Shown piece by piece: positions 5,772 through 47,160 of a DNA stretch of 64,000 nucleotides. Where the stretch lies: the NCBI GenBank assembly GCA_030065875.1, contig JASJCR010000019.1, forward strand, positions 62,001 to 126,000. Direction: 5' to 3'. The notes below the pieces were generated by a model, which saw nothing but the letters and a program-made list of their open reading frames with translations, was not told where the DNA came from and did not search any database. The stretch's first letter is position 1, and each line of letters opens with the position of its first letter. This DNA comes from Ardenticatenaceae bacterium. GTDB lineage: Bacteria > Chloroflexota > Anaerolineae > Promineifilales > Promineifilaceae. A program made the translations under genes and the position numbers.

Positions 5772-6172
5772 TGGCTACCACAAGACCTGTTCAAATTTCT
5801 ACCAAGCAGCGCTTTGAGCGCATGGCGTATATGTTTATGCGCATGTCGGGTATCTCCCTGCTGTTTCTGGCTGTGGGGCACGTCATGATTCAGCTTGTCA
5901 TTAATGATGTGCACAATTTGGATCTAACCTTTGTGGCCAATCAGTGGAACGATTGGGGATGGAAAGCGTATGACATGCTGCTCTTGACGTTTGCTGTTGC
6001 TCATGGTTACAACGGTTTGCGCAATGTTTTAGAAGATTACATCCATAATGAAGGATTAATGCGCGCCATTAACTTCGTGCTGGCGGTTTTTGTGGTGGCC
6101 ACAATTGTTTGGTCGGCCGTGGCCATTGCCAGTTTTGATGCCGAGCTGATTCACCAGGTGATGGGTTCGTAG
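5771..6172 (+). CDS. sdhD: Succinate dehydrogenase membrane anchor subunit
   Basis: TAATG overlap with sdhC; 3 TM, VAHGYNGLRNVLEDYI. Confidence 0.85.
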   Translation: MATTRPVQISTKQRFERMAYMFMRMSGISLLFLAVGHVMIQLVINDVHNLDLTFVANQWNDWGWKAYDMLLLTFAVAHGYNGLRNVLEDYIHNEGLMRAINFVLAVFVVATIVWSAVAIASFDAELIHQVMGS

Positions 6173-6296
6173 GAATTTATTCAGGTGCCTGGCAAATTCT
6201 AATTATCAGTGACAGGAACTTCCCAAGGTGTTTCTAGCTTTTCATGCCGGGCTTGAAAGTGCCTGTCACTTCTAGAGAAAAAGAGGAATTAACAAA

Positions 6297-8081
6297 ATGA
6301 AGCCGATTGTGCATACACATGATGCCATTATTGTCGGGGCTGGAGGGGCCGGTTTGATGGCTGCTCTTTACGCCAGCCGGGGAGCCGATGTGGCGGTAGT
6401 CTCAAAATTGTATCCCACGCGCTCCCACACCGGGGCTGCTCAAGGCGGGGTTGGGGCTGCTTTAGGAAATGACGAAGAGGATCATTGGGAGTGGCACGCG
6501 TACGATACCGTCAAAGGGTCTGATTACCTGGCGGATCAGGATGCGGTCGACGTGCTGGCCAAGGAAGCCATTGATGCCGTTATTGAACTCGAGCATATGG
6601 GTCTTCCGTTTGATCGTTTTCCCAACGGCAAAATTTCTCAGCGGCGGTTTGGGGGGCACACAAATAAAGATACCGGCAAGCCGGTTCAGCGAGCGTGTCA
6701 CGCGGCCGACCGCACCGGCCACATGATCCTGCAAACGCTCTATCAGCAGTGCATCAAAAACAAAGTTAACTTCTACGATGAATTTCAGGTGGTCGATCTG
6801 ATTCGCGAGGGAGACACGGTTCGCGGTGTGATAGCGGTTGAAATGTCAACCGGGGATTTCCATATTTTCCACGGCAAAGCGGTATTATTTGCTTCTGGTG
6901 GATGGGGTCGCTGTTGGGAAGTCACTTCCAATGCCCATTCCTTGACCGGTGACGGTGCGGCGATTTGCCTGCGACGCGGAATTCCGCTCGAGGATATGGA
7001 GTTCTTCCAGTTTCATCCAACCGGCATTTTTAAGCTGGGGATTTTGATTACCGAAGGAGTCCGCGGCGAAGGCGGGGTGCTTCTCAACAGTGAGGGAGAG
7101 CGGTTTATGGATCGCTATGCCCCCACGATTAAAGACTTGGCCAGCCGCGATGTGGTTAGTCGAGCGATTTATCTGGAGGTCAAAGCCGGCCGGGGCGTCA
7201 ACGGACAAAATTACGTCCATCTGGACGTGACGCCGGAAACGGTGAACCACTACTTCAAGCAAGATGGGTACGCCGATCGCTCCATCACCAGAGAATACAT
7301 CGAAGAGAAACTGCCGGATATCGCTGATTTTACGCGCACCTATCTCGGTGTAGATCCGGTAAAAGAGCCGATGCCGGTACAGCCCACCGCCCATTACGCT
7401 ATGGGTGGCATCCCCACTAATGCGGATACAGAGGTGATTATCGATGCCAACAACACGGTCCTTACCGGCCTTTATGCGGCCGGCGAATGCGCCTGTGTGT
7501 CGGTTCACGGGGCCAACCGTCTGGGCACCAACTCGCTGGTTGACCTGATTGTATTTGGGCGGCGTGCCGGGATGAAGATGGCTGAATTTTGCAGCTCGGC
7601 CGAGCTGCTGCCGCTGCCGGAAGATTCGGCCGCCGAGGTCATGGCTGAGTTTGATCGTCTTCTCAAAAGCGATGGCGGCGTTAAACCGCATGATGTTCGC
7701 GTAGCCATGCAAAAAACGATGACGGAAAATGTCAGCGTATTCCGCCTGCAGGAGAGTATGGATCAAGCGGTCGTTGATCTGAAAGAGCTGCGGGAAAAAT
7801 TCAAGCAGGTCACCGTTGAAGATAAAGGGAAGCGCTTTAACACCGACCTGCTCGAAACGTGGGAACTCGACTGCCTACTGCAGCTTGCCCAGGTAACGGC
7901 CGTCTCGGCCGCGGCCCGCACCGAAAGTCGTGGCGCCCATGCCCGCGACGATTATCAAGAGCGGGACGATGAAAATTGGCTCAAACATACACTCTGCTTT
8001 ATGAAAGAGGATGGGTCATTTGAATTGGACTATAAACCGGTGGTGATCGGCCGATACGAGCCGAAACCACGCGTGTATTAA
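6297..8081 (+). CDS. sdhA: Succinate dehydrogenase flavoprotein subunit
   Basis: 594 aa; [50 protein letters not shown]. Confidence 0.97.
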
Positions 8082-8824: not shown

Positions 8825-8844
8825 ACCAAATCCCTATCCCCCAA

Positions 8845-8874
8845 CCCCCTTCCCTGGGAAGGGGGTTTTTTTTT
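8845..8874 (+). terminator. Rho-independent terminator after sdhB
   Basis: CCCCCTTCC..GGAAGGGGG followed by T9. Confidence 0.85.
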
Positions 8875-12287: not shown

Positions 12288-12392
12288 ATTAGCTATCAGT
12301 ACGGCCCCCCGGGCCTGTCAGCCAGCTGATAGCCTTTGGCTGCGAGGTGCGCAGCGCCGTGCTAAAATGCTGACAGGCGCGCTATTATGCTG
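12288..12392. repeat. Variable mini-hairpin array (locus M1)
   Basis: GGCCCCCCGGGCC, GGTGCGCAGCGCC modules with GCTATCAG/CTGTCAGC/CGTGCTAAAATGCTGACAGG linkers. Confidence 0.75.
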
Positions 12393-27074: not shown

Positions 27075-27107
27075 AGATTGGACCAATCTCCAAGATTGGT
27101 CCAATCC
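27075..27107. repeat. Perfect hairpin GATTGGACCAATC tccaa GATTGGTCCAATC
   Basis: 13-bp perfect arms, 5-nt loop; each arm is itself a near palindrome. Confidence 0.9.
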
Positions 27108-30764: not shown

Positions 30765-31249
30765 GCCGCTACCTCCTCTTGCTGCAGCTTTTCGGCCGCA
30801 TACTGGATCGCTTCGACGATTTTGTTATAGCCGGTGCAGCGACACAAATTCCCCGATATGCCCCAGCGAATTTCATCCTCCGTGGGGTTGGGGTTTTTAC
30901 TCAGCAGATGTTTGGCGCTCATTAACATCCCTGGGGTGCAGTAACCGCACTGCAGCCCGTGTTTTTCCCAGAATCCCTCCTGCAGCGGATGAAGCTGGCC
31001 TCCTTCGGCCATTCCTTCAACCGTATCGACTTCCGCCCCGTTGGCCTGCACGGCGAACATGGTACAGCTTTTAACCGCCCGGCCGTTGATCAGCACCGTA
31101 CACGCCCCACAGCTAGTGGTGTCGCAGCCGATATGGGTGCCGGTTAAGTCAAGATTTTCGCGAATAAAGTGCACCAGCAGCAGGCGCGAGTCGACCTCTG
31201 CGCTGTGATCGGTGCCGTTGACGCTGATTGTGATTGAATGTTTGCTCAT
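30761..31249 (-). CDS. coxS: CO dehydrogenase [2Fe-2S] small subunit
   Basis: [59 protein letters not shown]. Confidence 0.95.
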
Positions 31250-31263
31250 GATATCTCCGGATA

Positions 31264-31436
31264 GATACGAAATACGAGATACGAAATACGAGATACGAAA
31301 TACGAAATACGAGATGCGAGATACGAGATGCGAAATACGGTAGGCTAATTTTTTAATCGCGATGTTCTATTTAAAATATTTCAACACAGATCACCTAATT
31401 TCGTATTTCCAATTTCGTCATTCGTGTTTCAATTTG
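31264..31436. repeat. Facing complementary heptamer arrays (ATACGAR)n / (ATTTCGT)n
   Basis: 11 consecutive ATACGAA/ATACGAG-type units, then inverted ATTTCGT ATTTCCA ATTTCGT CATTCGT GTTTCAA. Confidence 0.95.
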
Positions 31437-32292
31437 CTCTTTCCATCGCCTTGCGAATTGTCCTTTTTACCATCACGCGGGTCAGGTCCCGTTTGTATGC
31501 CACTGAACCGCGCAGATCCTGAGAGGGATCACACTCAGCGGCCGCGGCTTGACCGGCCGCTTCAATGACATCATCGGTCAATGTTTGACCGACCAGGGCC
31601 TGTTCGGCATTTTTGGCGCGCATGGGCACCGGGCTGACGTTGGTCAGGCCGATGCGGGCGGCCGTGCAGGTGCCGCCGCTCATGGTCAGCTGTACGGCCG
31701 CGGCCGAGATAGCATAATCACCGACTTTGCGCTCGAGTTTGAGATACGCGCCACCGGTTCCTGCAGCCGGGGTGGGAATGCGAATCTCAGTCAGGATTTC
31801 GTTTTCCTCAAGTGAATTTTCAAATAGATCGGTGAAAAAATCGTCTATGGCGATACGCCTGGTGCCGTTGGGGCCGGCCGCCATCACGGTCGCCCCATAG
31901 GCCAACATCACGGCCGGGTGATCGTTGGCCGGATCAGAATGAGCGATATTGCCACCCACGGTGGCCAGATTGCGCACCAGTGGATCAGCGATCACGGCGG
32001 CCGCGTCAGCCAGCAAATGATATTTGCTCTGGACGATATCCGACTCTTCCAGAGCGCTTTCACGGGTCATGGCTCCAATGAGCAAATGGCCGTTTTCTTC
32101 GCGCAAATAAGAGAGCCCATCGATGCGATTGATATCGATCAGCGTGCCGGGCAGGGCAAGACGAAAACGCATGGCAGGGATTAAACTTTGCCCACCGGCC
32201 AGGATCTTAGCCTCGTCACCATGCTCAACGAGAAGGGAGATTGCTTCGGCAAGGGTTTGGGGAGAATGATAATCGAACTCTCCGGGAATCAT
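31429..32292 (-). CDS. coxM: CO dehydrogenase FAD-binding medium subunit
   Basis: AGGQSLIPAMRFRLALP, RNLATVGGNIAHSDPANDHP. Confidence 0.95.
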   Translation of the reverse strand: MIPGEFDYHSPQTLAEAISLLVEHGDEAKILAGGQSLIPAMRFRLALPGTLIDINRIDGLSYLREENGHLLIGAMTRESALEESDIVQSKYHLLADAAAVIADPLVRNLATVGGNIAHSDPANDHPAVMLAYGATVMAAGPNGTRRIAIDDFFTDLFENSLEENEILTEIRIPTPAAGTGGAYLKLERKVGDYAISAAAVQLTMSGGTCTAARIGLTNVSPVPMRAKNAEQALVGQTLTDDVIEAAGQAAAAECDPSQDLRGSVAYKRDLTRVMVKRTIRKAMERAN

Positions 32293-32305
32293 GGGGTTGA
32301 ACTCC

Positions 32306-32494
32306 TTTTTAGCACGGTGCTGCGCACCTGTCAGCCCGGCCCTGCGGGCCTTTTAGCTGATAGCTGAAAGGGGCGGAGCCCCGAGCTAAAAGCCGCGCAG
32401 CGGCGTGCTAAAAGAGGCGCAGCCTCGAGCTATCAGGTGCGCAGCACCGTGCTAGTACGCTAACAGGCGCTTTAGCGCCGCGCTCCTCTAAAAG
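32306..32494. repeat. Variable mini-hairpin array, 22-bp period (locus M2)
   Basis: GGGCggaGCCC at 32371, CCGCgcaGCGG at 32393, AGGCgcaGCCT at 32415, GTGCgcaGCAC at 32437, with 11-nt linkers; inverted modules on the left. Confidence 0.95.
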
Positions 32495-33153
32495 AAAATA
32501 AAATAAAAAATCACCAGCACCAGGATGATGCCACCGATGATGAGGGGCAGGCGATATTGGGCCGGTATGAGCTCGCCGGCCACATCTTTGGCTACGTTTA
32601 CGGCCAATTCTGTTTGTGTAGGGGGAACGTATTCAGGGGTTTTGGTTTCAGCAACAGCTTCCGCCACTTCCTCCGCCGCAGCTTCACCGCCGGCCGCGGC
32701 CTTTTCTTTGGCAACCTGAACCTGAAGATAGGCATTGAGCGCTTCCAGACTTTGCTTAATGATAGATTTGGCTGAGGCATCGAGCAGTCGCTGGCCGACG
32801 CTGGCGATTCGGCCGCCGACTTTGGCTTCACCTTGATAAGTCAGGAGGGTGGCATCGCTTTGACCGGTTAAGGATAGAGAGCCGTTGGCTTTTACAAAGC
32901 CGGGAGCTCCTTTGCCATCCACCTCAATATCATAGCTGTTGGGTGGGCTGATATTTGACAGCTTGATGTTGCCGGTAAATTTTCCCTGAACCGGCCCCAC
33001 CTTGATTTTTAATTTGCTTTCGTATTCATTTTCACCGGTTTGGGTGACCCCTTCACCCCCCGGTAAAACAGAGCCCAGCACGTCGGGATCCTGGACCGCT
33101 TCCCAAACCAGGTGTTGGGGGGCATCAAATGTATATTCGCCTTGTAATTTCAT
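32488..33153 (-). CDS. coxG: CoxG/SRPBCC carbon monoxide dehydrogenase subunit G
   Basis: MKLQGEYTFDAPQHLVWEAVQDPDVLGSVLPG; C-terminal TM LPLIIGGIILVLVIFYFIFF. Confidence 0.92.
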   Translation of the reverse strand: MKLQGEYTFDAPQHLVWEAVQDPDVLGSVLPGGEGVTQTGENEYESKLKIKVGPVQGKFTGNIKLSNISPPNSYDIEVDGKGAPGFVKANGSLSLTGQSDATLLTYQGEAKVGGRIASVGQRLLDASAKSIIKQSLEALNAYLQVQVAKEKAAAGGEAAAEEVAEAVAETKTPEYVPPTQTELAVNVAKDVAGELIPAQYRLPLIIGGIILVLVIFYFIFF

Positions 33154-33169
33154 AGATATTCTCCTTCTC

Positions 33170-33240
33170 AGACGACAGACTTCAGACCACAGACTACAGC
33201 AACTTTCTCTGAGGTCTGAGGTCTGCAGTCTGTGGTCTCG
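33170..33240. repeat. Facing complementary heptamer arrays (AGACNAC)n / (GAGGTCT)n
   Basis: AGACGAC AGACTTC AGACCAC AGACTAC then GAGGTCT GAGGTCT GCAGTCT GTGGTCT. Confidence 0.93.
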
Positions 33241-34381
33241 TATTCCCTAACTTCGACAAATGCTCGGCCAGGGTTGAAAGTGTTTGCAAATTATGGATCG
33301 GTAAAAAATCGTCGATGTAGGGCAGGGCGGCTGCCATCCCTTCGACGAGCGGTTGGTATCCTACCCGGCCGGAAAGCGGGTTCAGCCAGATTAAGCGGTG
33401 ACAGCGATGGTGTAAATAGCGCATTTCGCGGCCTAATTCAGAAACATCACCTCGTTCCCAGCCGTCACTCATAATTACCACAATTGCCCCGCGCCGCAAA
33501 ACCCGGCGGCTCCATTCCCGGTTAAACTGCTTAATTGAATCCCCGATTCGGGTGCCGCCCGACCAGTCAACGACATCACGAGCCGCCAAATTGATCGCCT
33601 GATCGATATTTTTGAGTTTGAGCTGCGGGGTGATACGGGTTAGGCGAGTGCCAAAAACAAAAGCTTCCACCGTTTTTAAGCTGTGGGTGACGCTGTAAAA
33701 AAATTGCAGCGTCAGGCGGGCGTACTTTTCCATCGAGCCGCTAATATCGGCCAGCAAGATGAGCGGCCGCTCTTTGATTTTTTTGCTTTGGTAGGCGAGT
33801 TGAAGGGGAGTGCCGTTAAATTTAGCGGCCGCGCGCAGGCAGCGTCGTAAATGCAGCCGCTGTCCCGAATCATCGGCTGTAAAGCGGCGGGTCGTACGCA
33901 GGCTAACTTGCCAGCGCATCTCCTGAATCAGTTTTTTGACGGTTTCCAGTTCTTCAATTGTCAAATGTCCAAAATCTTTGCTTTGCAGCAGTTCACTGCT
34001 GCTAAAGGAGCCTGCCTTGTCGGCAATTTCTAGCGCCTGATCGTTGCGCTTTGCCTTGCTGGCCATGAGCATCGCCAAACTGTATGGATGATTGCGCGGC
34101 CGGTTGTGGCGGGGCGCGACCGGCATTTTTTGACCACGCCCGTTTTTTGTGATGGCCGGCCGCCAGAAGAGGTTAAACAACACCTCAAACAAACGCAAAT
34201 GCTCCTGCCGCATGACCAGGGTGCCTCTGGCAACATAAAAAAACTGTTCTTTCTGGCCCATGTCAACCAGGGTCAACGCCTGGCAAAAATCTTGAGCCTG
34301 GCTCGAGGAGATGGGCAAACCGGCCGCTTTTAGCACCCGGGTAAACTGCAGTGCGTTTGCCAAAAAAAACGAATTGCTCAT
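33194..34381 (-). CDS. coxE: VWA-containing CoxE-like protein
   Basis: LILLADISGSMEKYARL, SDGWERGDVSELGREMRYLH; next to MoxR ATPase. Confidence 0.9.
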   Translation of the reverse strand: MSNSFFLANALQFTRVLKAAGLPISSSQAQDFCQALTLVDMGQKEQFFYVARGTLVMRQEHLRLFEVLFNLFWRPAITKNGRGQKMPVAPRHNRPRNHPYSLAMLMASKAKRNDQALEIADKAGSFSSSELLQSKDFGHLTIEELETVKKLIQEMRWQVSLRTTRRFTADDSGQRLHLRRCLRAAAKFNGTPLQLAYQSKKIKERPLILLADISGSMEKYARLTLQFFYSVTHSLKTVEAFVFGTRLTRITPQLKLKNIDQAINLAARDVVDWSGGTRIGDSIKQFNREWSRRVLRRGAIVVIMSDGWERGDVSELGREMRYLHHRCHRLIWLNPLSGRVGYQPLVEGMAAALPYIDDFLPIHNLQTLSTLAEHLSKLGNTRPQTADLRPQRKLL

Positions 34382-36354: not shown

Positions 36355-36499
36355 CTCTTTTAGCTCGGCCCTGTGGGCCTTTTAGCATTTAGCGCGCCGC
36401 TGCGCGGCTTTTAGCTAATAGCTTATGGCTAAGAGGGGCGGAGCCCCGCCCTAAAAGGTCCACAGGACCGTGCAGCGAGGGGCTTCAGCCCCGAGCTAA
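36355..36499. repeat. Variable mini-hairpin array (locus M3)
   Basis: GGCCCtgtGGGCC, CCGCtgcGCGG, GGGCggaGCCC (36436), GTCCacaGGAC (36458), GGGGCTTCAGCCCC; 22-bp period on the right half. Confidence 0.93.
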
Positions 36500-41816: not shown

Positions 41817-41896
41817 ATTTTAGCACGGCCCTACGGGCCTTTTAGCAACTTAGCTCCACAGCCATTCTGCTGACAGGTGCGCAGCACCGTGCTTCT
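41817..41896. repeat. Variable mini-hairpin array (locus M4)
   Basis: TTTTAGCACGGCCCTACGGGCCTTTTAGC ... GCTGACAGGTGCGCAGCACCGTGCT. Confidence 0.9.
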
Positions 41897-47040: not shown

Positions 47041-47160
47041 CCTTTTTAGCGTTCTAGCACGCCGCTACGCGGCTGTCAGCATTTTAGCCATAAAGCTATT
47101 TAGCTATAAGGTGCAAAGCACCGTGCTTAACTGCTATTAGGCCCACAGGCCCGAGCTAAT
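47041..47160. repeat. Variable mini-hairpin array (locus M5)
   Basis: CCGCtacGCGG, GTGCaaaGCAC, GGCCcacaGGCC modules with GCTAWWAG-type linkers. Confidence 0.9.

Follow-up and report, generated by a model that had tools for sequence, protein, structure and literature searches.

The genome of the Ardenticatenaceae bacterium (assembly GCA_030065875.1) carries roughly a hundred copies of a short non-coding element. The element is built from rows of very small DNA hairpins whose sequence changes while the folded shape is kept. The same unusual element occurs in a distant group, the Rubrobacteraceae, which suggests a previously undescribed family of mobile DNA, resembling REP and REPIN elements, that is maintained as folded single strands. 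The mobility and the single-stranded stage are inferred from sequence. The copy examined in most detail lies in a 64,000-nucleotide stretch of contig JASJCR010000019.1 (positions 62,001 to 126,000, here called the window), where it fills the gap between a coxG-like and a coxM-like gene, both on the minus strand. The components of this array and its surroundings, in window coordinates, are as follows.

32312-32335, minus strand: outer left module in inverse orientation, with linker GCTGACAG, stem GGTGC, loop GCA and tail CGTGC
32334-32357, minus strand: inner left module in inverse orientation, with linker GCTAAAAG, stem GGCCC, loop GCA and tail CGGGC
32350-32370, no strand assigned: centre of the array, a linker palindrome CTTTTAGCT-GAT-AGCTGAAAG; similar centres are found in other arrays
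32363-32386, plus strand: first right module, GCTGAAAG, hairpin GGGC-GGA-GCCC at 32371-32381, then CGAGC
32385-32408, plus strand: second right module, GCTAAAAG, hairpin CCGC-GCA-GCGG at 32393-32403, then CGTGC
32407-32430, plus strand: third right module, GCTAAAAG, hairpin AGGC-GCA-GCCT at 32415-32425, then CGAGC
32429-32452, plus strand: fourth right module, GCTATCAG, hairpin GTGC-GCA-GCAC at 32437-32447, then CGTGC
32459-32483, plus strand: fifth right module, GCTAACAG, stem GGCGC, loop TTTA, tail GCGC, predicted in both the DNA and the RNA folds
32484-32494, plus strand: terminal partial linker TCCTCTAAAAG, which contains the TAG stop codon of coxG (32488-32490, read on the minus strand)
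31429-32292, minus strand: open reading frame downstream of the array, called coxM-like after the sequence-only reading
32488-33153, minus strand: coxG-like gene upstream of the array, with homologues in 44 of 51 genomes of the family
36363-36473, no strand assigned: second array in the window, with two minus and two plus modules
41823-41892, no strand assigned: third array, with one minus and one plus module
47057-47156, no strand assigned: fourth array, with one minus and two plus modules
12299-12362, no strand assigned: fifth, degenerate array, with one minus and one plus module

The sequence-only reading had described four 11-nt hairpins spaced exactly 22 bp apart, separated by an 11-nt linker and preceded by similar modules in inverse orientation, and this observation is confirmed. 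The hairpins start at 32371, 32393, 32415 and 32437, and the linkers between them are CGAGCTAAAAG, CGTGCTAAAAG and CGAGCTATCAG. A fifth plus-strand module, whose stem and loop lie at 32459-32479, had not been listed. One correction is necessary, because the insert is not always a 4-3-4 hairpin. Counting the fixed outer G-C pair, stems of 4-6 bp and loops of 3-6 nt occur, and 50 of 270 modules are 5-bp stems with tetraloops.

The array is neither a chance occurrence nor confined to one locus. The pattern GCTAWMAGN6AN4CRWGCTA has 79 hits in the 7.42-Mb genome compared to 1 for the reversed pattern, and a looser form has 315 compared to 5. In 779 kb of sequence around hits, 256 modules were found in 69 clusters, whereas a first-order Markov sequence gave 3. 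The commonest same-strand spacing is 22 bp (62 cases), followed by 29 bp (24) and 30 bp (22). Scaling the clusters by the share of loose hits that were read (187 of 315) gives an estimate of about 115 arrays in the genome. That the arms might not vary, or that no further modules might exist beyond the window, had been named in advance as refuting results, and neither was the case.

The arrays are strictly polarized. In all 69 clusters minus-strand modules precede plus-strand modules: 51 clusters have both arms, 18 have only one, and none is mixed. In a wider scan, 47 of 58 multi-module clusters have this order and the rest are one-armed. Each strand thus reads hairpins with TNC loops in its 5' half and hairpins with GNA loops in its 3' half. 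Arrays usually contain more than two units, and up to 13. When the window array is folded as DNA or as RNA, a long stem is predicted between the arms, carrying the mini-hairpins (z -6.5 to -7.1). Some arrays have expanded in tandem. In locus L048 (on contig C136 of the window's genome), a 110-bp block of modules is repeated about four times (positions 6008-6471), and in L035 (10146-10487) a 53-bp unit is expanded on one arm only, as is a 31-bp unit in the Rubrobacteraceae locus L139 (2470-2650).

The variation within the modules is compensated. Of 210 modules selected by their linker alone, 183 have fully paired 4-bp arms, whereas redistributing the 3' arms at random gave a mean of 27 and a maximum of 42 in 2000 shuffles. 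Eighteen fully paired arm sequences occur among the 4-3-4 modules, although five of them (GCCC, GTGC, GCGC, CCGC and GGGC) account for 143 of the 183. Non-Watson-Crick pairs are few and show no G.U excess (T.G/G.T 12, C.A/A.C 10). The loop and its closing pair are, on the contrary, constrained. Of 208 C-closed triloops, 166 are GNA, compared to 5.8% in background hairpins of the same genome, and 272 of 291 modules close with C-G. Of 60 tetraloops, 45 are G..A, of which 37 are GNYA and 8 GNRA. GNA triloops give extraordinarily stable DNA mini-hairpins (Yoshizawa et al. 1997, as cited in PMC6479982). The d(cGNNAg) tetraloop is likewise stable in DNA. An RNA constraint would have been expected to favor GNRA, and the loops are therefore taken as evidence that the folded single DNA strand is what matters, although this is an inference from sequence.

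The innermost left and right hairpins share the same arm sequence in only 2 of the 51 two-armed arrays, whereas 8 are expected. This would fit avoidance of long perfect palindromes, but it was one of three such comparisons and is only suggestive. Outer arms are no more alike than chance, and neither are neighboring hairpins. Two perfect palindromes of 31 and 25 bp with 3-nt loops in the window, at 27076-27106 (GATTGGACCAATCTCCAAGATTGGTCCAATC) and 8843-8867 (AACCCCCTTCCCTGGGAAGGGGGTT), are not part of the family.

The arrays are intergenic. Only 1 of 61 arrays is centered inside an ORF of at least 120 amino acids, although such ORFs cover 85% of the DNA. The array at 12.3 kb of the window overlaps a long ORF but is positioned before a plausible later start codon. 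The orientation of the genes flanking arrays (40 same, 11 divergent, 7 convergent) does not differ from that around gaps without arrays (187, 54 and 48, respectively; chi-square P 0.68), which does not favor a terminator role. REPs elsewhere are reported to prefer same-direction and convergent gaps (PMC3733652).

The distribution of the element is discontinuous. None of the other 55 genomes of the order, four congeners among the genomes compared, has the strict pattern, and a pattern of two linkers found nothing module-like in the other 399 genomes sampled across the phylum. A scan of GTDB genomes for two linkers 22 bp apart gave 12 stretches, of which five are in Rubrobacteraceae and contain genuine hairpins, whereas the rest look like chance or other tandem repeats. 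A pattern scan of IMG/VR gave two chance-like hits, and plasmid and phage collections contained no similar DNA. In the Rubrobacteraceae, 11 of 39 genomes have hits, although the single hits of two of them look like chance. The genome designated G080, a single-contig assembly of 4.38 Mb as far as read, has 64 hits and none for the control. The linker (CGNGCTGANAG), the GNA loops (57 of 71, background 9.5%), the C-G closure (81 of 87) and the polarity (13 two-armed clusters, none reversed) are the same there, but stems are often longer and less uniform than in the window's genome. Within a sample of 396 genomes of that phylum, only Rubrobacteraceae carry genuine modules.

The best indication of mobility comes from G080. 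Many arrays there flank a directional core of about 75-90 bp (near AGTCGTCYGT..GCGTTACGCC..CGACACCCGAACCG..GCGC..GCCCGGTCNGGCC..GGCAAGAAGCTGAC), seen between the arms at loci L137, L138, L140, L142-L148, L150 and L152-L154, and occurring in both orientations. Copies that are 90% identical over 322 bp and 96% identical over 237 bp lie at distant positions, and the identity stops abruptly at unrelated flanks, which suggests that the element is mobile. Between close copies some hairpins differ as units, for example GGC-GAA-GCC against GGCC-GCAA-GGCC, or loop GACA against GAA. In the window's genome the identity of whole copies is lower. The best pair, two neighboring arrays in L027, is 94% identical over 105 bp and differs by one inserted module and a changed hairpin, so that spread by something other than insertion, or long ago, is possible there. 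Some imperfect hairpins carry two different known arms on a shared loop, as expected if halves are exchanged, though with so few arm types single mutations can look the same. The coxG-coxM gap of a relative with 66% identical CoxG (L061) has no array, another relative (L054) has a different repeat there, and a congener (G048) has two long, nearly perfect hairpins just downstream of coxG (L066, 1208-1335) that are unrelated to this family. This genus may hold other hairpin elements. No precise empty site from a close relative was found. A MITE of a DDE transposon would have terminal inverted repeats and a target-site duplication. Mirror-image arms exist here, but no target-site duplication was detected, as direct repeats in the flanks are no longer than in shuffled pairs, and the exact ends of the element are not defined by an empty site.

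A linked processing or recombinase gene, which the sequence-only reading had proposed to look for, was not found: in the arrays read, no gene between the arms looks like an enzyme of the element. Two short-gap candidates (a 124-residue, four-helix-bundle-like ORF in L014 and a 105-residue ORF in L029) and a sulfatase-like ORF in L139 of G080 look, by eye only, like ordinary neighbors. The window's genome has three Y1 genes, but each is flanked by its own, different hairpins, which are not dispersed in the sequence read. One, an IS200-like gene of 134 residues at L048 (4106-4510), is flanked by AACCGCAGGCTAAAACCTG and GCTGAAGCGCCCTAAA and lies about 1.5 kb from the longest array of the family, yet the two repeat types appear unrelated. 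The other two, RAYT-like genes at L049 (9860-10650) and L050 (10213-10880), are each flanked by a private palindrome (AAGTTCGACTTCTTCAAGAAGTCGAACTT and GGTGGGTYTCATCTAAGAG..., respectively). Ten Rubrobacteraceae genomes, seven of them with arrays and one of these the single-contig G080, have no Y1_Tnp at all. No integron integrase passed the cut-off of TIGR02249 in the 8 genomes searched, which showed only general tyrosine-recombinase background and, on contig C7 of the window's genome (4662-4838), a 60-residue fragment matching the C-terminal end of integron integrases (92 bits, one internal stop). A search for the Y2 (IS91) transposase PF04986 found nothing, but the control genomes were also silent and the search was uninformative.

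Taken together, the array is best explained, with moderate confidence, as one copy of a dispersed, non-coding, REP/REPIN-like mobile DNA element. Its unit is a constant linker (CGNGCTRANAG) followed by a mini-hairpin that, by its loop type, would fold in single-stranded DNA into the extra-stable d(cGNAg) or d(cGNNAg) form, and the units are stacked head to tail in two mirror-image arms around a center. The analysis itself establishes the dispersal over intergenic sites, the polarity, the compensated arms, the DNA-type loops, the near-identical copies in unrelated flanks in Rubrobacteraceae and the occurrence in two distant groups. The mechanism, in contrast, is inferred, and the single-stranded stage rests on loop chemistry only. 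In this view, a strand exposed during replication (the lagging-strand template) or an excised strand folds into a chain of mini-hairpins, and the fold and linker, not the arm sequence, are recognized or copied, so that arms may drift as long as they pair. One arm would be re-copied from the other by hairpin-templated repair or template switching, and identical linkers would let whole hairpins be gained, lost or swapped in steps of one unit. The limited arm repertoire could, however, reflect module exchange rather than continuing mutation. Insertion at new sites would require an enzyme, which could not be identified; in Rubrobacteraceae, judging by the ten genomes searched, it is not a Y1 (RAYT) transposase encoded in the same genome.

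Other explanations appear less likely. Ordinary REP/BIME elements with an unusual tag, mobilized by a RAYT (Y1, IS200-like) transposase of this genome, are suggested by the three Y1 genes and by the fact that REPs elsewhere are intergenic, palindromic, dimeric and may supply TAG stop codons (PMC3733652), as here for coxG. This is unlikely in view of the private hairpins of the Y1 genes, the Rubrobacteraceae without Y1_Tnp, the lack of a GTAG or CGTC tag, and the head-to-tail arrangement, which is reported as absent or rare in REP dimers. About equally unlikely is enzyme-free growth, in which modules arise, multiply and jump by replication slippage and template switching at single-stranded hairpins, including ectopic switching between arrays. 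The 11-bp linkers are natural slippage sites, the spacing is in steps of about one unit, some imperfect hairpins join two known arm types, and the tandem expansions in L048 and L139 exist, but this does not by itself explain about a hundred separate intergenic sites or the ~300-bp copies with a directional core at distant places in G080.

That the arrays act as RNA, as terminators, mRNA stabilizers or processed small RNAs, is doubtful. The predicted RNA folds are very stable on both strands (z -7.1 and -6.5) and many arrays lie between co-directional genes. However, there is no convergent bias, the tetraloops are GNYA rather than GNRA, and mismatches show no G.U excess. No Rfam family reaches its gathering score in window positions 31000-33500 or in loci L048, L144, L148 and L152, where tRNAs elsewhere were the only such matches and two weak microRNA-precursor matches are below threshold. 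Least likely are host structural sites, i.e. binding sites or cruciforms for a nucleoid, supercoiling or repair protein. Although 22 bp is about two helical turns and the arrays are symmetric, a double-strand-specific binder of the arms would not tolerate their free variation, and the absence of the form from four congeners and the sampled phylum shows that it is not a conserved essential system. Regulatory or nucleoid roles are nevertheless not excluded.

It is possible, but less likely than not, that the element represents a third, RAYT-independent class of bacterial palindromic mobile DNA, which spreads as a folded single-stranded chain of d(cGNAg) mini-hairpins with fold and linker rather than sequence as the inherited signal, and which has crossed between phyla. 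Its mobilizer would be an undescribed enzyme or the replication machinery itself. If the interpretation is correct, the arrays are a natural, genome-wide record of selection or copying acting on folded single-stranded DNA, in which many hairpins in each of two unrelated genomes keep a loop and closing pair that are extraordinarily stable in DNA, while stems vary by paired changes. The element would then be a system for asking how palindromic repeats spread without a RAYT transposase, and how compensatory changes arise in non-coding DNA, in one event or in two. No description of this linker or of mini-hairpin arrays was found in the open papers searched, although the coverage was partial and this is not proof of absence.

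Among known systems, the element most resembles REP, BIME and REPIN elements (PMC3733652, PMC3116915). It shares with them short intergenic palindromes of 20-40 bp in high copy, a conserved unpaired tag next to a hairpin with complementary stem changes, the inverted pairing of units with a spacer, and the possible supply of TAG stop codons. Its tag is GCTRANAG before and CGNGC after the stem, rather than GTAG or CGTC, its units are stacked head to tail in two polarized arms, and its loops are constrained to GNA or GNNA. A cognate RAYT flanked by the same repeats, as reported for GTAG REPs (CGTC REPs are said to lack one), was found neither here nor in the Rubrobacteraceae tested. It is thus not a member of the described REP super-families. 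Recognition of a folded single-stranded hairpin next to a short tag, as in IS200/IS605-type transposition and TnpA-REP (PMC8266576), is the mode proposed here, but no Y1 enzyme is linked to the arrays. Integron attC sites are also sequence-variable, structure-conserved single-strand hairpins recognized by their fold, but no gene cassettes were seen at the arrays. Mitochondrial double-hairpin elements and repetitive hairpin-forming elements are dispersed, non-coding and treated as invading elements (PMC2800124). They are organellar and are not known to form tandem arrays with a fixed linker.

The interpretation given in the sequence-only reading is therefore partly supported. Its conserved linker, variable self-complementary insert and inverse half are correct, but its analogy with CRISPR is not supported. 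CRISPR arrays share the alternation of a constant and a variable part at a fixed period, but here the variable part is nearly always self-complementary and is drawn from a few recurring types rather than from unique spacers, each two-armed array consists of mirror-image halves, and about a hundred copies are dispersed over intergenic sites.
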